Below, piece after piece: positions 3,590 to 63,668 of a stretch of DNA of 63,668 nt. Origin of the DNA: a virus; the IMG/VR virus record IMGVR_UViG_3300049432_000050, positions 1 through 63,668 of that record. One strand, written 5' to 3'. The position numbers were made by a program, and so were the translations under genes. Within the stretch, counting starts at the first letter, position 1. Every line of letters starts with the position of its first letter. The notes beneath the pieces are model-generated. The model made no database searches. It saw only the letters and a list, made by a program, of their open reading frames with translations, and was not told the DNA's origin.

Positions 3590-3760
3590 TTGCCAGCCAA
3601 ACCAGTCGCGAAGATCCAAGCCGTCGGCGCGGGCGGCGCCGCAGGAATCATCCTCGTCGCCGTCGCCGGCGCAGTCGGCCTTGACCTCGCCCCGGAGGTC
3701 GCGGCGGCCGTCGTGACGCTCCTCACGTTCGGCGCGGGCTACCTCAAGCGCGGCGCGTGA
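3590..3760 (+). CDS. Candidate holin
   Basis: 56 residues beginning at TTG, with a strong GGGGGAGA Shine-Dalgarno sequence 4 nt upstream of it. Two hydrophobic segments flank a conserved-looking APEVAAAVVTLLTF stretch and a basic tail (YLKRG). This resembles the small actinophage holin-type proteins that sit beside endolysins. The amidase gene lies 170 bp downstream. Holins form the inner-membrane lesion that releases or activates endolysin. Function is inferred from size, topology and neighbourhood. Confidence 0.55.
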   Translation: MPAKPVAKIQAVGAGGAAGIILVAVAGAVGLDLAPEVAAAVVTLLTFGAGYLKRGA

Positions 3761-3936
3761 TGCTCAGCATCCTGAAGCGAATCCTCGGGCCGCACGACGA
3801 CACCGCCGCCCCGGAGCTCGACGACCCCGACCACATCGACGGGGAACCAGAACTCACAGACGAAGACCTCGCCGGCCGCCTGGAGGACGTCGAGCCGCTG
3901 ACGTCGCATGTCAACCTGAAAGACGAGGATGCGTGA
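3760..3936 (+). CDS. Small acidic protein of the lysis region
   Basis: 58 residues. A basic amphipathic N-terminus (MLSILKRILG) precedes a strongly acidic Asp/Glu-rich body. It is coupled to the holin candidate by TGATG and to the amidase by a 4-bp overlap. Similar short acidic proteins occur between holin and lysin genes in actinophages, but I cannot name a family. Confidence 0.6.
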   Translation: MLSILKRILGPHDDTAAPELDDPDHIDGEPELTDEDLAGRLEDVEPLTSHVNLKDEDA

Positions 3937-4475
3937 GCCGCTACACCCCGCACGTCGTTCACCGCCGCCGCTCACCCAACCAATCAAGCCGCGGCGGCGC
4001 GAGACCCCGCATCATCGTCCTGCACTCCACCGAGGGCAGCAACATCCCTGGGTCGAGCGCGGACCTGATCGGCTGCACCAGCTTTCTGTGCCAGCCCGGC
4101 GTGCAAGCCTCGTCGCACGTCATCGTCGACGGCGACGGCCACAGCGCGCGTCTCGTGGCCGACGAGGCGAAGAGTTGGGCGCAGGCGCGGTACAACCCGT
4201 TCGCGCTGAGCATCGAACAGATCGGGCACGCCGCCTCCGAGCACTGGACGCGCAACGAGATCCGCGAGACCGCCAGATGGATCGCACGGTGGTCGAAGCG
4301 ATGGAACATCCCGATCCGGCAGGGCGCCGTCAACGGCGGGTTCGTCACGAAACCGGGGGTCGTCACGCACAAGCAGCTCGGCGTGCTCGGCGGCGGCCAC
4401 GTCGACCCAGGCCCCCGCTACCCGTTCGAAGCGACACTGCGGCTCGCCCGGTTCTACCGCAGCAAGCTCGGCTAG
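3933..4475 (+). CDS. Endolysin: N-acetylmuramoyl-L-alanine amidase
   Basis: 180 residues forming a single Amidase_2-type (PGRP fold) domain. LHSTEGS supplies the first zinc histidine (about residue 29). HVIVDGDG and the IEQIGH strand are typical of the fold. GGHVDPGPRYP near 150 supplies the C-terminal zinc ligand and substrate-groove residues. It should cleave the bond between muramic acid and the stem peptide. No separate cell-wall-binding domain or signal peptide is present, so release through a holin is expected. The start is GTG, overlapping the previous gene. Confidence 0.9.
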   Translation: MSRYTPHVVHRRRSPNQSSRGGARPRIIVLHSTEGSNIPGSSADLIGCTSFLCQPGVQASSHVIVDGDGHSARLVADEAKSWAQARYNPFALSIEQIGHAASEHWTRNEIRETARWIARWSKRWNIPIRQGAVNGGFVTKPGVVTHKQLGVLGGGHVDPGPRYPFEATLRLARFYRSKLG

Positions 4476-8398: not shown

Positions 8399-9120
8399 CT
8401 GCCTTGAGCATCGAGCGGCCGGTCGCGCTGGTCGTCGAGCAGGACGACAAAGTCCGGGTCATGCTCGGTGACAACCTGACCGCGGACGGCTTGGAGGTCA
8501 TCACCGCGGGCGACGCTGGCGAGGGCTTGCGGCTCGCTGGCCGGCACGCGCCGGATGTCGCGGTCGTCGGCGTGAACGGCGGGTCGGGCCGGGACTTCGC
8601 GAAGGTCGTGCGTGCCGGCGAATCCGGCGTTGACCGCCGCTTGCCGATGGTGCTCCTCGGCGGCGATCAACGCGAGCTCGACACGCTCCGCGCGTTCCAG
8701 GCCGGGGCGGACGACTACATGGCGCGGGAGGGCTTCAGCTACCCGGTGCTGTACGCCCGTGTCCGGGCGTTGCTCAGGCGTGTCGAGCTGGATCAGCAGA
8801 CGCGGGAGCGGGTGCGGCGCGCGGGCGGCGTCACGATCGATGGTGCGACCAGGGTCGCGACGATCGAGGGTGGCCCGCCGATCAGCCTGACGAAGCACGA
8901 GTTCTCGCTGTTGTGGGCGCTCGCGGGGGATCCGTTGCGGATCTTCGCGAAGGAGGAGTTGCTGCGGATCATGGGCAACCGTGCGTCGGGGTCGTTGCGG
9001 ACCGTCGATTCGCACGCGTCCAGGTTGCGTAAGAAGTTGGGGAACCCGCCCGGCGTCGTCGTGGGGCGTTGGGGCGCGGGGTACTCGTTGCTGGCGGCCG
9101 AGAGCGCGGTGACGTTGTGA
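8395..9120 (+). CDS. OmpR-family response regulator with degenerate receiver
   Basis: 241 residues. Residues about 10-125 align with a receiver domain, but the positions needed for phosphorylation are lost. The acidic pair reads VEQDD, the acceptor Asp position is Gly in VAVVGVNGG, the Ser/Thr switch is Gly (VLLGGD), and the invariant Lys is missing in GADDYMAREGF. Residues about 145-235 form a winged-helix transcriptional domain (LTKHEFSLLWALAG, TVDSHASRLRKKL, WGAGYSLL). It is probably a phosphorylation-independent DNA-binding protein that mimics or competes with host regulators. A CAGGAGA site precedes the ATG. The wing sequence resembles Thermoleophilia regulators from memory, pointing to a host-derived gene. 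No kinase is encoded nearby. Confidence 0.85.
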   Translation: MTALSIERPVALVVEQDDKVRVMLGDNLTADGLEVITAGDAGEGLRLAGRHAPDVAVVGVNGGSGRDFAKVVRAGESGVDRRLPMVLLGGDQRELDTLRAFQAGADDYMAREGFSYPVLYARVRALLRRVELDQQTRERVRRAGGVTIDGATRVATIEGGPPISLTKHEFSLLWALAGDPLRIFAKEELLRIMGNRASGSLRTVDSHASRLRKKLGNPPGVVVGRWGAGYSLLAAESAVTL

Positions 9121-9520: not shown

Positions 9521-10620
9521 TGGCCGAGGAACCGGGCACCGAACTGCCCGCCGAGCACGAGCTTCAAGGCGAGCCGATGGCGCTCATCAAGCGCGTCCCG
9601 TTGCCTCCCGCGATCGGGCCGCACGTCCTGTCCGACGATGAGATCCGCCGGACGTGGCGGCTGTCGTCGGCGTTGGCGGCGTCGGGGATGTTCAAGGATG
9701 CGCGGCAGGCGGAGGTCGCGTTCGCGAAGGTGCTGATCGGCCAGGATCTCGGGATCAGCGCGACGCGTGCGCTGGCGGGCATCGACATCGTGAAGGGCAA
9801 CGTACAGTTGCGTGGCGTGCTGCTCCTCGCGTTCGTCCGCGAATCCAAGACGTACGACTACAAGATCATCGAGCTGGACGGCGAGACGGAGATCCCGGAC
9901 GTCAAGACGGACGCCGAGCGCGAGGCGAAGCAGCGCGCGACGCTGCGGTTCTTTCAGATCCAGCCGGACGGGTCGCGGGAAGCGCTGACGCCGGACATCA
10001 CGTTCACGATGGCGATGGCCCGCAAGCAGGGCAACGTGAAGACGGACAGTGCGTGGATGTCGGCGCGGCGGAACATGCTGTTGTGGCGGGCGGCGTCGGA
10101 TGGCGTGAAGTTCCATTGCCCCGACCTCCTCGGCGGGGTCCCTGTCTACGTCGAAGGCGAACTCGACAACGTCAGGGGCGAGATCGGGGCGGGCACTGGC
10201 ACCGGGGAGGCGCGCGGCGTGGACCTCGGCCCGGAGGTTGAGGCGGTCATCGCCCGCGCGACGGAGCTCGGGCATGCCGGCCTGTCGGATCGTGCGTCGA
10301 TCGAGACGCAGCTGGGGGATCAGCCGCCGTGGAAGTTTCAGGAGTGGGTGCGCGCCGCGAAGCTCGAGCTTGACGGGGTGCCGCGGGACGCTGAGGTCGT
10401 CGAACCGATAGACGCCGCGGATGTGGAGGCGCCGGCGGCGGACGACGCGGAGGTGATCGAGGCGTTGCGTGCCCGCGCCCTGGATCTCCTCGCTGACGCC
10501 GACGGGTTCGATCAGGAGGACGACCCCGACAAGGCCGCGATGGCGCGTGAGGAGGCGGAGCAGATCATGGCTCGCGTCGATCGTGCGGACACCGGTCAGA
10601 CGACGCTCGGGGGGCTGTGA
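9520..10620 (+). CDS. recT: RecT-family single-strand annealing protein
   Basis: 366 residues. The core (about 45-215) shows the RecT order: a helical start (EVAFAKVLIGQDLGIS), GNVQLRGVLLLAFV, a strand with YDYKI, and SAWMSARRNMLLWRAAS ahead of a CPDLLGGVPVY segment. The C-terminal 130 residues are acidic and probably disordered. The protein should anneal complementary strands during phage recombination and replication-fork repair. The following gene is a matching RecB/Cas4-type nuclease, the usual partner arrangement. The start shares its A with the upstream stop. Confidence 0.85.
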   Translation: MAEEPGTELPAEHELQGEPMALIKRVPLPPAIGPHVLSDDEIRRTWRLSSALAASGMFKDARQAEVAFAKVLIGQDLGISATRALAGIDIVKGNVQLRGVLLLAFVRESKTYDYKIIELDGETEIPDVKTDAEREAKQRATLRFFQIQPDGSREALTPDITFTMAMARKQGNVKTDSAWMSARRNMLLWRAASDGVKFHCPDLLGGVPVYVEGELDNVRGEIGAGTGTGEARGVDLGPEVEAVIARATELGHAGLSDRASIETQLGDQPPWKFQEWVRAAKLELDGVPRDAEVVEPIDAADVEAPAADDAEVIEALRARALDLLADADGFDQEDDPDKAAMAREEAEQIMARVDRADTGQTTLGGL

Positions 10621-11693
10621 TGACGGTTCGTGAGCGTCCGACGACGTACCGCCAATCGACGTTGCGCAGTTTCGAAACGTGCGCCAGGCGCGCGATTCAC
10701 GGTCTCGCGCTGGACGATGATCTGTCGGCGGGGAACGTTGGTGCTTCGGCGGCTCTCGGCGCAGCGTTCCACGCTGTGGCCGCTGAGATTCTGCGGACGT
10801 TGCGCCGCACGGGTGAGCAGCAGATGCCGACGCAGGAAGGAATTGAGATTCTTTATGAGGTCATGGCCCGCGGCGATTGGGTGCTCGGCGCCGACGAGCG
10901 TGATGACCTGCGCGCGTTCGTGTTGACGTTCTGCTCGTACTACAAGTGGCCGCGGCCCCCGATGGCGCTCGAGCGGCAGATCGCGACGGACATCGTGTGC
11001 CCTGACGGCGTGACGCGGACGCTGACGGGGACGCCGGATGCGCTCGTCGCGGATCCCCCGGACGGCGTTATTGCGATTGACTATAAGACGGGTCGTGGTG
11101 AGCGCAGGTCGCCGCGGAAGATGCCGGCGGGGGACGATCCGATCGTTGGCCGCGAGTATCTGTCTGTCGGCGGCACGTTCCAGCTGGACGTGTATGGCCT
11201 GCTCGTGCTGCGCGAGTATCCGGCGGCGCAGCGTGTGACGCTCAGGGAGGCGTGGTTGCGGTTCGGTGAGCGTTGCGAGGCGACGCTTGGCCGTGACGAG
11301 CTTGAGCATGTCGAGCGGGAGATCGCCGTGCAGATGATGCTCTTGGACCGCGCGATCGACGAGGGGCCCGATGGGAAGCTCGCGAAGCCGCGGCCGGGCC
11401 GTCAGTGCTTGCGGGCGTGCCCGGTGAAGCGGTCCTGCCCGATCCCCGCGGAGCAGCGCGGCGTTGGCGCTCTCGCGGACTCCGCGGACGCGGACGCTGA
11501 GGCGGCGCGGTTCGTTGTTGTCGATGCGCTGCGGCAGGAGCAGCGGGACGCGTTGAAAGCGGTGTACGAGGAGACGGGCCGGCCGCCCGAGGTTGGGGAT
11601 GGCCGCGGGTTGTTCTGGCGCGACAAGGCGGCGGGCGGCCGGGATTTCGGCGTTTGGCCGCTCTCGGATCACAACGGAGGGGAGCAGGCATGA
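10620..11693 (+). CDS. RecB/Cas4-type PD-(D/E)XK nuclease
   Basis: 357 residues. TLTGTPDAL (near 140) and AIDYKTG (near 153) supply the acidic and Lys residues of a PD-(D/E)XK core. FQLDVYGLLVL follows as the motif-IV-like helix. A cysteine cluster near the C-terminus (CLRACPVKRSC) could hold an iron-sulfur cluster with an upstream Cys, as in Cas4 and AddB. The probable job is 5' or 3' resection to feed RecT. It is coupled by TGATG to recT; a GTG 3 nt earlier is an alternative start. Confidence 0.8.
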   Translation: MTVRERPTTYRQSTLRSFETCARRAIHGLALDDDLSAGNVGASAALGAAFHAVAAEILRTLRRTGEQQMPTQEGIEILYEVMARGDWVLGADERDDLRAFVLTFCSYYKWPRPPMALERQIATDIVCPDGVTRTLTGTPDALVADPPDGVIAIDYKTGRGERRSPRKMPAGDDPIVGREYLSVGGTFQLDVYGLLVLREYPAAQRVTLREAWLRFGERCEATLGRDELEHVEREIAVQMMLLDRAIDEGPDGKLAKPRPGRQCLRACPVKRSCPIPAEQRGVGALADSADADAEAARFVVVDALRQEQRDALKAVYEETGRPPEVGDGRGLFWRDKAAGGRDFGVWPLSDHNGGEQA

Positions 11694-14551: not shown

Positions 14552-14751
14552 GCGGTCTCGTGAACAGCGAAGGCTTCAAGTTCGGCGCTGCCTACCGGGC
14601 ACTGAAGCACGCCGCCGAGTCGCGCGGTCTGATCGTTTCGCCACCGTACGCCGACGCGAAGGCGCGCGAGGCGTTCACTAACGGCTACGAGTCGGCGCTG
14701 AGCGACGTCGCCCTCGGCCGCCTGCCCGTGCCATCGCCGGAGACCCCATGA
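14548..14751 (+). CDS. Hypothetical protein, 67 aa
   Basis: A short protein with aromatic residues in a FKFGAAYRALKHAAES helix and a YADAKAREAFTNGYESAL helix. Both ends overlap neighbours by 4 bp. No family. Confidence 0.55.
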   Translation: MSGLVNSEGFKFGAAYRALKHAAESRGLIVSPPYADAKAREAFTNGYESALSDVALGRLPVPSPETP

Positions 14752-14981
14752 GCGCCGAGGCGAAGTGGAGCGACCTGTCCAAGCGCGAGAAGCTGGACCT
14801 GATGTGCGCGATGGTTAGCCCGGCCGTGAAGGCCCGCGTCAAGCATTTCTTTCGCGGGCGGGCGATGACCGATCCACAGTACGTGATGAACGTCGTCCTG
14901 CGGGAGTCGTGGCGCGAGCAGCACGGCGACACGGCGGAGTGGGATCGTGTCGCGGCAGCGGCCGGGACCGTGATTCGATGA
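14748..14981 (+). CDS. Hypothetical helical protein, 77 aa
   Basis: A charged helical protein (WSDLSKREKLDLMCAMV) with a basic middle (KARVKHFFRGR). It is coupled to the secreted metalloprotease-like gene by ATGA. No family is recognised. Confidence 0.55.
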   Translation: MSAEAKWSDLSKREKLDLMCAMVSPAVKARVKHFFRGRAMTDPQYVMNVVLRESWREQHGDTAEWDRVAAAAGTVIR

Positions 14982-15460
14982 CCGGCTCGGCCTGCCTGCT
15001 CGCCCTGCTGGCCGCGCTGATGGTGCCCGCGATGGCTGGCGCGTTCCCCGTCACGCAGGATCTTACGGTCGCACGAGCCGTGCTGCCCGCGGGGCACCCG
15101 TGCAAGACGACGGTCGCGATCCAGCCGCGCCCGGATCTGCCGGGGCTCGCCGCGGCACCGATTGGTGTCTTGACCGCGCAAGGCTGGATGCAGCGCCTTG
15201 CGGACGGCCGCCTCGAGCCCTTGGACTGCGTCGTCCGCGTGAACCCCGCCGAGTGGGCTCGCCTGACGGCGTGTGGCCGGCGTCGCGCGCTCAAGCATGA
15301 GGTGATGCACATGGGCGGCCACGAGCACAGCGAGGGCGGGATCATGGCCGCGACGCCGCAGGCTCGTGCCCGGGTCGCGGTGCCGGGTTGCCCGGTCGCG
15401 CGGCGGCATCGTGCGCGGCGGTTGCGTGGCCCGATGTTCGACAGTTGGGGGCAACGATGA
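14978..15460 (+). CDS. Secreted metzincin-like zinc protease
   Basis: 160 residues. An N-terminal signal peptide (about 1-22, ending AGA) is followed by a small domain with two cysteines. Near residue 109 is HEVMHMGGHEHSEGGIM, an exact HExxHxxGxxH zinc-binding signature followed by a Gly-Ile-Met that resembles the metzincin Met-turn. The His ligands and catalytic Glu are all present. The domain is shorter than bacterial matrixins (about 160 residues of catalytic domain), so it is minimal. It would act outside the cytoplasm, perhaps on host surface proteins. It lies between early small genes and rusA. Confidence 0.7.
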   Translation: MTGSACLLALLAALMVPAMAGAFPVTQDLTVARAVLPAGHPCKTTVAIQPRPDLPGLAAAPIGVLTAQGWMQRLADGRLEPLDCVVRVNPAEWARLTACGRRRALKHEVMHMGGHEHSEGGIMAATPQARARVAVPGCPVARRHRARRLRGPMFDSWGQR

Positions 15461-15843
15461 CCACCGCGGCGGACCTGGTCGTCTGCGACCTCACGCTGAC
15501 CGGCGAACCCGTCGTGAAGGGTCGCCCGCGCATGGGTCGCGGAAGGACGTACACCCCAGCGGCGACGGTCGCGGCGGAGGAAGCGATCCGCTGGCAGCTG
15601 CGCGCCGCCGGCGTGCGGCCGGTCGCGGACGATCCGCTGGAGGTGCTGCTGCGGTTCCGCTGCTCCGGCCACCGCCGCCGCGATATCGACAATCTCTGCA
15701 AGCTGGCTCTCGATGCCTGTAACGGGTTCGCATGGGTGGACGATTCGCAGGTCGTGCATCTCGACGTGTGGCTGGAGCGCCAGTCGACGAGGCCGGGGAC
15801 GGATCTGCGCATCACGCGCTACGTCGAGGGGACACTGCGATGA
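15457..15843 (+). CDS. rusA: RusA-family Holliday junction resolvase
   Basis: 128 residues. GEPVVKGRPRMGRGRTYTP near residue 16 is the RusA opening motif. DIDNLCKLALDA and WVDDSQV supply the catalytic aspartates and Lys. RusA proteins are dimers that resolve branched DNA, which phages need before packaging. It is coupled to the protease-like gene by ATGA. A second, more distant RusA-like gene lies at 52672. Confidence 0.85.
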   Translation: MTTAADLVVCDLTLTGEPVVKGRPRMGRGRTYTPAATVAAEEAIRWQLRAAGVRPVADDPLEVLLRFRCSGHRRRDIDNLCKLALDACNGFAWVDDSQVVHLDVWLERQSTRPGTDLRITRYVEGTLR

Positions 15844-18290: not shown

Positions 18291-18692
18291 ATGAGCACCG
18301 TCACGGACGCGCCACTGAACCGGGTGCAGTGGCCGAGACTCAGCACCTGCAGTAGGTGCGCTGCGGAGATCCTGATCGCGTTGGCCGCGGACCGCCGCAC
18401 CAGTCTGATCCTGGACGCGTGGCCGGTGATCGTTGGCGTCGACACATGCCCGACCTGTCAGGGCCGTGGCCGGCGCGGCACACCCGACGACCCGCGCACC
18501 AGGCATCACAAGCTGACCGATGACGCGCTGGCGACGTGCCCGAAGTGCGGCGGCAGTGGGAAGACGGGCGAGGCGTTGACGAGAGAGCACGTCGTGATGA
18601 GCCACGACGGGATCGCGCGCCGCTGGCAACAGCTGGGCGGCCCGTGGAGCTCCGCGTATCGCGTGCATACGTGCGCGGGAGCGGACGCATGA
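18291..18692 (+). CDS. DnaJ-type zinc-finger protein, 133 aa
   Basis: CPTCQGRGRRG and CPKCGGSGKTG are CxxCxGxG repeats typical of the DnaJ central domain. An earlier CSRC provides further ligands. There is no J domain, so it is not a co-chaperone by itself; such stand-alone fingers often bind unfolded protein or nucleic acid. It is coupled to the transglycosylase-like gene by ATGA. Confidence 0.65.
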   Translation: MSTVTDAPLNRVQWPRLSTCSRCAAEILIALAADRRTSLILDAWPVIVGVDTCPTCQGRGRRGTPDDPRTRHHKLTDDALATCPKCGGSGKTGEALTREHVVMSHDGIARRWQQLGGPWSSAYRVHTCAGADA

Positions 18693-19054
18693 GCGCGCTT
18701 GTGGTCGCAGCCGCTCTGTTCCTGCCGGGGCAGCCGGTGAAGGCGCCACGCCCGCCGTGCTGGCGCCGCGTGTGCCGCGAGCGCGTCGAGATGCGGACCT
18801 ACAAGCGCAGGCCGATGCCGTGGTGCACGTGGGGCCCGGAGTCGGGCGCGTGGCGTCCTGAGTGGTCGCTCGCGCGGTACAGGCAGCCGAACATCTCGGG
18901 TGGCACGGGCGGCGGGAAGTTCCAGATCCTCACGGGCACGTGGTGGGCGCATGGCGGCTGGGGCCTGCCGCAGTTCGCGCGCCCAGTCGTGCAGGAACGC
19001 GTCGCGCGACGCGTCAAGGGGTCGCAGGGCCTCGGCGCCTGGGTGAACTGCTGA
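18689..19054 (+). CDS. Secreted Rpf/transglycosylase-like protein
   Basis: 121 residues. An N-terminal signal or anchor (about 1-17) is followed by a Cys-containing linker and a lysozyme-like domain. The domain has PESGAWRPEW with the expected catalytic Glu, SGGTGGGKFQILTGTWW as the substrate-groove segment, QERVARRV and a final QGLGAWVNC. This order matches resuscitation-promoting-factor transglycosylases, although it lacks their accessory domains. It would cleave peptidoglycan glycan strands outside the membrane, perhaps for lysis or superinfection control. Confidence 0.7.
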   Translation: MSALVVAAALFLPGQPVKAPRPPCWRRVCRERVEMRTYKRRPMPWCTWGPESGAWRPEWSLARYRQPNISGGTGGGKFQILTGTWWAHGGWGLPQFARPVVQERVARRVKGSQGLGAWVNC

Positions 19055-53351: not shown

Positions 53352-54839
53352 TCACGCCGGGATCGGTTCGGAATCCGGCGCATCGTCCGCGACGGCGAAC
53401 GACTCGTTGACCTCCGCTATGAGCTCATCGGGCACCCAGTAGGCGCGAAACCGGCGCGGCGTCATCGCGGTAGACGCGTCTGCCGGCGAAACCCACGGCA
53501 GCCATGAAAGCCACCGCGGCACCGTGTGCGCCTCGAACTCGTCCGCGGCCTCGTCCACCTTGACGTAGCCCACCCCCGGCAGCGACGGCGGGATCTCATC
53601 CGCTCGCGCGCCCGACATGTACGCGGTGCGGCCGAGAATCTTGCGGACCGTGTCCACGTTGTCGATGCGCAGAGCGATCTTTACGGGGATCTCGTCGCGG
53701 TCCCGCACGATCTCCTTCGTGGCGTTCTGGACGGCGCCGACGACGCTGCATCCCGGTGCGCGCCCGACGTTGATGAGTTGCCGCACCGACTCGCCGACCT
53801 TCTTATCCGCGGCGAGGACACCCTGCTCGTCGAAGAAGATGACCGTGAGAGGCCGCTCCGGCGTCGGTGTCAGCTTGCGCTCACCGCGTCCCTTCAGGTA
53901 CGGCAAGTTGTCCTTCATTCGCGTAACGCCCTTCGCGAGCAGCGCCTCGATGTCCTCGTCGGTATCCGCGAACTCAGCGAACAGATTGCGGCCCGGGAAC
54001 AACTCGACGCCGCCCTTCGCGTCCGCGACCCAAATCTCGACGGAGCCCTCCCGGATATACGGGATCAGGTGCAGGATGATGCTCCAGAACACCGAGCCCT
54101 TGCCCGCCCCCGTCTGCCCAACGACGAGGACGTGCGACCCGAGCACTGGGGCCGTAACCTTCCGCCCGCGCTCGTCGACGCCGATCGGGATGCGGCGCAG
54201 ATCCACCTCGCTCGTGGACGCCGGGATGCCGGGGAACGGGACGACGTCAGCGAGCGGGTCGTCCCCGCGGGGAAGCTCGAGCGTGACGTAGTCCGTCTGC
54301 GGGATGTCCGTCACGCGGCACTCCCGCGCGAGGAACGCTTTTGCGAGGTTCTGCGCGGTCTGCCCGTCATGCCCGACGAACTCGCGTGTCGTCTGTCCCG
54401 GCAGCACCTTCACGCGGACCGTGTCACCGGAGCGCGTGCAGGTCACCTTTGCGAGCTTCGGGACCTTGTCGAATCCGTTGTCAACGATCCCGGTGAGGTT
54501 CTGCCCAGCGAGCACGCGCTGCCACCGCCGCTCATACAGTCGCCACCTGCGGAACGCGCTGTACAGCCTGACGCCGATCAGGCCACGGTACGCCGCGAGG
54601 ACGCCCAGGCGGCCTGTTGTGCGCGCGAGGACGCGGCCCGTGATGTTCCATGCGATCAGGGCCAGGGCACCGTAGAACACGACGCCGACCGCGGCATGCA
54701 AGGTCGTCACGACCGCGAGCGCGACGAACGCGGCGAGCAGGCCGGCGCGGACCGGAAACCGGTATGCCGCGACAGCGACGATCGCGACCGTCTGACACAC
54801 AATCACGATGAGGTTCCAGATCAGGACCGCCCAATCCAT
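53352..54839 (-). CDS. FtsK/SpoIIIE (TraB-like) DNA translocase
   Basis: 495 residues. Three N-terminal transmembrane helices (within about 5-70) precede a cytoplasmic linker and the motor. The motor has GQTGAGKGS (Walker A near 240), VADAKGGVEL, LTVIFFDEQ (Walker B near 332) and VVGAVQNATKE. The architecture resembles the transfer proteins of Streptomyces conjugative plasmids and cell-division FtsK, but there is no gamma DNA-recognition domain. It could move DNA across the membrane or act in segregation. It is convergent with the RusA-like gene and 4 nt from the methyltransferase gene. Confidence 0.8.
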   Translation of the reverse strand: MDWAVLIWNLIVIVCQTVAIVAVAAYRFPVRAGLLAAFVALAVVTTLHAAVGVVFYGALALIAWNITGRVLARTTGRLGVLAAYRGLIGVRLYSAFRRWRLYERRWQRVLAGQNLTGIVDNGFDKVPKLAKVTCTRSGDTVRVKVLPGQTTREFVGHDGQTAQNLAKAFLARECRVTDIPQTDYVTLELPRGDDPLADVVPFPGIPASTSEVDLRRIPIGVDERGRKVTAPVLGSHVLVVGQTGAGKGSVFWSIILHLIPYIREGSVEIWVADAKGGVELFPGRNLFAEFADTDEDIEALLAKGVTRMKDNLPYLKGRGERKLTPTPERPLTVIFFDEQGVLAADKKVGESVRQLINVGRAPGCSVVGAVQNATKEIVRDRDEIPVKIALRIDNVDTVRKILGRTAYMSGARADEIPPSLPGVGYVKVDEAADEFEAHTVPRWLSWLPWVSPADASTAMTPRRFRAYWVPDELIAEVNESFAVADDAPDSEPIPA

Positions 54840-63656: not shown

Positions 63657-63668
63657 AGATCGGAAGAG
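63657..63668 (+). other. Residual Illumina adapter sequence
   Basis: AGATCGGAAGAG is the first 12 bases of the TruSeq read-through adapter. It replaces the genomic GGTCATGG that follows GACGTG at the left end. It is a sequencing artefact, not phage DNA. Confidence 0.95.

Follow-up and report, generated by a model that had tools for sequence, protein, structure and literature searches.

A small exported metzincin-like protease predicted among the recombination genes of an environmental phage

Mtz-Tim of Listeria is a system of phage origin that is also found within prophages, and its Mtz component, a metzincin, is secreted and cleaves a lipoprotein (PMC8235301). Mtz-Tim changes the cell wall of Listeria and promotes phage lysis, and it raises sensitivity to holin-lysin and to cell-wall agents, also in trans, in a manner that depends on the activity of Mtz (PMC8235301). 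The gene described here lies at 14978..15460 on the plus strand of a 63,668 bp virus record, the whole of which is referred to as the window. Set against the published description of Mtz (PMC8235301) rather than against its sequence, this gene is likewise a phage- or prophage-associated accessory gene whose product has a Sec/SPI leader (predicted here), the HExxHxxGxxH/D signature, and a Met-turn. The surroundings differ: Mtz-Tim includes a TIMP-like lipoprotein partner and lies downstream of holin-lysin, whereas the protease gene of the window has a leaderless 77-aa ORF and a RusA gene (VRR-NUC in a sibling phage) as neighbors and is situated ∼10 kb from holin and endolysin. The host of Mtz is Listeria, whereas the window phage probably comes from a different host group. 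Because there is no Tim-like neighbor and the lysis genes are this distant, the window gene is at most Mtz-like in action and is not classed as Mtz-Tim.

Other described proteins share parts of this architecture. The matrixins (PF00413) have in common with the window protein HExxHxxGxxH and a nearby Met, but the catalytic domain of the window protein is much smaller and no cysteine-switch prodomain is seen: its translation contains no PRCGxPD-like motif of the MMP-type switch, and the space between leader and core is too small for a prodomain. Similar in size to the window protein are selecase (PDB IDs: 4qhf-4qhj), proabylysin (PDB ID: 4jiu), and Acel_2062 (PDB ID: 3e11), at 12 to 21% sequence identity; none of the three is known to have a leader. 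Small exported phage zincins from IMG/VR (for example L021, L041, L048, L077, and L078) combine HExxHxxGxxHxxxG[IV]M with a nearby hydrophobic N-terminus, but their similarity to the window protein beyond the motif is weak or absent and several have fewer or other cysteines.

The window has a G+C content of 68% and contains terminase (from 22.8 kb), portal, tape measure, and holin plus endolysin (3590-4475) genes. The terminase is of the actinophage type, and the best phage matches of TerL are to Streptomyces, Arthrobacter, and Gordonia phages at 36 to 40% identity. Based on the TerL similarity and the G+C content, we assign the record to an environmental phage whose host probably belongs to the Actinomycetota. 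The phage also encodes an OmpR-type response regulator (8419-9117, plus strand; PF00486 E 1.5e-13, PF00072 E 5.3e-6) and an FtsK/SpoIIIE-like protein (53352-54836, minus strand; phrog_1358 E 4.1e-21). The last letters of the record (63657-63668) read AGATCGGAAGAG, which matches the start of the common Illumina adapter, and this contig end is probably a sequencing artefact.

The predicted gene for a small exported metzincin-like protein encodes 160 aa, from ATG 14978 to TGA 15458-15460. Its start overlaps the upstream 77-aa ORF through an ATGA (14978-14981), and its last four bases overlap the start of RusA in the same way (15457-15460). A longer ORF from a GTG at 14909 is possible; ATG 14978 is favored because of the ATGA coupling and because the ATG is kept in the sibling. 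A long antisense ORF (14678-15454) was not retained, since the forward frame is supported by the ATGA coupling and by conservation of its product in the sibling. Residues 1 to 22 (14978..15043, plus strand) form a predicted Sec signal peptide, MTGSACLLALLAALMVPAMAGA, read from the sequence and conserved in the sibling; it is hydrophobic and ends in AGA|F, with cleavage expected after AGA to leave a predicted mature protein of ∼138 aa. The n-region is weak, with no positive charge in the window protein and a single Arg in the sibling. The signal peptide of the original prediction was thus borne out as a leader-like N-terminus, and the ORF, its frame, and the exact HExxHxxGxxH followed by GIM were confirmed. 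The motif segment, HEVMHMGGHEHSEGGIM (15296..15346, plus strand; residues 107-123), comprises the zinc motif HEVMHMGGHEH (residues 107-117), an exact match to the metzincin-clan HExxHxxGxxH/D signature, and a Met-turn-like GIM, recognized by sequence alone, in which the Met lies six residues past the third His. HE..H..G..H..GG[IV]MA, including the G[IV]M, is invariant among the aligned relatives (alignment A6), and HEVMH is unusual in having Met as its fourth residue. The mature part holds four cysteines (residues 42, 84, 99, and 138; 15101..15391, plus strand) that are invariant in the four-member alignment, and we infer two disulfides among them.

A chance origin of the motif was assessed with 200 order-2 Markov windows and six-frame motif counts. 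The Markov expectation for HExxHxxGxx[HD] is 0.035 occurrences per six-frame window, and none of the 200 Markov windows contained the version with G[IV]M; the extended motif with GIM occurs once in the real window. These values rule out a chance motif.

A sibling phage is represented by IMG/VR contig 3300048996_000074 (50,063 bp, with a 127-bp terminal repeat). The two proteases share 81 to 83% protein identity (83% over the central 120 residues) and do not differ in motif or cysteines. The sibling also keeps, at 86% DNA identity, the stretch that begins with the 77-aa ORF and runs through the protease gene. The ATGA overlaps on both sides, together with this conservation, establish that the protease gene is real, and a dN/dS of 0.44 from the single window-sibling pair suggests moderate constraint. 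The 77-aa ORF (14748..14981, plus strand), which has no signal peptide and is ATGA-coupled to the protease gene, adjoins that gene in the sibling too, and a search for its relatives found the sibling only. The slot after the protease gene is occupied in the window by a RusA-like Holliday junction resolvase (15457..15843, plus strand; Pfam E 2.1e-18) and in the sibling by a VRR-NUC nuclease (L054:8369-8779). With an exonuclease (phrog_69) at 10617-11690 and HTH proteins at 12.6-13.4 kb, the surroundings fit an early or recombination module, the early timing being judged from gene content. A small leader-bearing protein of the Rpf transglycosylase type (18683-19051, plus strand; PF06737 E 2.7e-7, with a weak NCBIfam RpfC match at 5e-4) is encoded 3.2 kb downstream of the protease gene and is conserved in the sibling at ∼86% DNA identity. 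By its leader, it would be a further exported product encoded close to the recombination genes.

No Pfam or NCBIfam model matched the window protein. It does not qualify as a Matrixin (PF00413) by the Pfam gathering score, and its nearest relative, L073, matches that model at E 3.4e-4 with 20.9 bits, under the curated cutoff of 24 bits. Sequence matches of the window protein to PDB families were attributed to chance, and a weak PHROG match to a RusA family (E 0.014), covering the leader and N-terminal part, was judged spurious. Two AlphaFold runs using four-sequence alignments gave low-confidence models (pLDDT 59.9 and 62.6, pTM 0.55 and 0.56), in both of which the motif lies along a single long helix that follows an edge strand. 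The best PDB neighbors of the first model were the minimal zincins selecase, proabylysin, and Acel_2062, with Foldseek E ≥ 0.1 and VIA Z scores of 5 to 7 (6.5 to 7.1 for selecase and proabylysin), a range that is below the safe level of the tool and may reflect a common arrangement. Selecase was found again with the second model at weaker Foldseek values, and neither model had a Foldseek match at E ≤ 0.001. The metzincin BaP1 gave a VIA Z of 2.8 against the low-confidence model. The modeled fold is compatible with a zincin.

The original prediction held that a signal peptide with such a signature is very rare for a phage early gene, but as a statement on rarity in phages this is incorrect. A scan of viral contigs for HExxHxxGxxHxxxGIM returned 52 contigs and the GVM form a further 19, giving 71 viral contigs and 62 distinct proteins, of which 33 have an N-terminus with a hydrophobic segment under a simple hydropathy criterion; in addition, a prophage metzincin has already been published (PMC8235301). 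On these counts, the extended motif is recurrent in environmental phages and not singular. Two of the 62, the distant phage proteins L030/L073 and L081, share with the window protein a leader, four Cys, and HE..H..G..H..GG[IV]MA. The L081 gene has a GTGA overlap with its upstream neighbor and replication-type genes nearby, and the L073 gene adjoins terminase genes. The family alignment comprises four members; L077 was left out because adding it misplaced its cysteines. When its profile was set against those of other small phage zincins, the family gave a match of 96% probability over 27 columns at the motif only. Among 50,697 sequenced phages, no relative of the window protein was found, nor were relatives of four other small phage zincins found in sequenced phages. 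A plasmid search gave only weak partial matches (E ≥ 0.03) with the HExxH motif outside them. No relative was confirmed in genome contigs; the stricter motif scan returned one Verrucomicrobia protein of 576 aa. Separately, a metzincin-like motif, HELGHAGGLGHSSRGIM, lies internally (L049:6765-6815, minus strand) within a ∼2,100-aa phage protein that is possibly structural.

The secreted metzincin-like protease of the original prediction is still the best reading of the sequence, based on the motif, GIM, leader, four Cys, and homologs that include one touching Matrixin. Against it stand the failure of the window protein to match Pfam or NCBIfam models, the chance-level PDB sequence hits, the low-confidence models, the restriction of the profile match to the motif, and the uncharged n-region. 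We consider it probable, with some reserve, that the gene encodes a Sec-exported, disulfide-stabilized, minimal metzincin-like protease that is located among recombination genes and acts on host envelope proteins. The gene forms an operon with the small cytosolic 77-aa ORF and the RusA resolvase, apparently in an early module, and the host Sec machinery would export the 14978-15460 product, which two disulfides would stabilize. As judged from the motif, Zn would be coordinated by His 107, 111, and 117, with Glu108 activating a water molecule and the GIM turn lying beneath the site. The leader and the four Cys lead us to place the protein outside the membrane, where it would most likely, as an accessory trait, cut at least one host envelope or secreted protein, the substrate being a guess. 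The changed envelope might benefit the phage through easier lysis or altered adsorption, again a guess. That the protein instead acts in the cytosol as an HExxH regulator like ImmA (an M78 antirepressor) is very improbable: HExxH protease genes in temperate-phage early regions are often ImmA-like, a type also mentioned in PMC8235301, but the leader, the four conserved cysteines, and the third His with GIM do not fit, and there is no M78 Pfam match.

If the protease is exported, it could aid lysis by weakening the envelope, removing envelope proteins or releasing a lipoprotein and thereby speeding up holin-endolysin lysis, perhaps together with the transglycosylase-like protein. Mtz-Tim is the precedent and the sole experimental one (PMC8235301), and envelope remodeling is a fair guess because the exported transglycosylase-like protein is also conserved in the sibling; the ∼10 kb to holin and endolysin and the missing adjoining Tim-like lipoprotein speak against this role, which we regard as a minority possibility. 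Superinfection exclusion, the role put forward in the original prediction, in which the protease would clear the receptor or some other surface protein off the infected cell or adjacent cells and so keep later phages from adsorbing, would suit the predicted export and likely early location, but the published phage-linked metzincin instead sensitizes cells to lysis (PMC8235301), and we rate exclusion as decidedly unlikely. The very small domain, absence of a recognizable prodomain, weak fold match, and unusual Met in HEVMH would also be consistent with an exported zincin-fold protein that does not perform general proteolysis, whether because it is self-limited, acts on a single phage or host peptide, or has no activity. 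This appears unlikely; the catalytic letters are all invariant among four relatives, which argues against decay.

We therefore view the exported metzincin-like protease as another small member of an already known class, and the four-Cys family to which it belongs has no Pfam or NCBIfam model. A bolder proposal, which we advance only tentatively, is that this unnamed family consists of minimal exported phage metzincins that accompany early recombination genes and, in the course of infection, cleave a host surface protein to exclude other phages or recondition the envelope; if true, a phage enzyme that is not part of the virion would be editing the cell surface by proteolysis. If active, the window protein would rank with the smallest exported metzincin-like proteases known and could give phages an extra proteolytic route to edit the host surface from within the infected cell. 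The four-Cys family, and the related zincin genes that environmental phages carry by the dozen, suggest that enzymes exported by phages include a class that is under-annotated.
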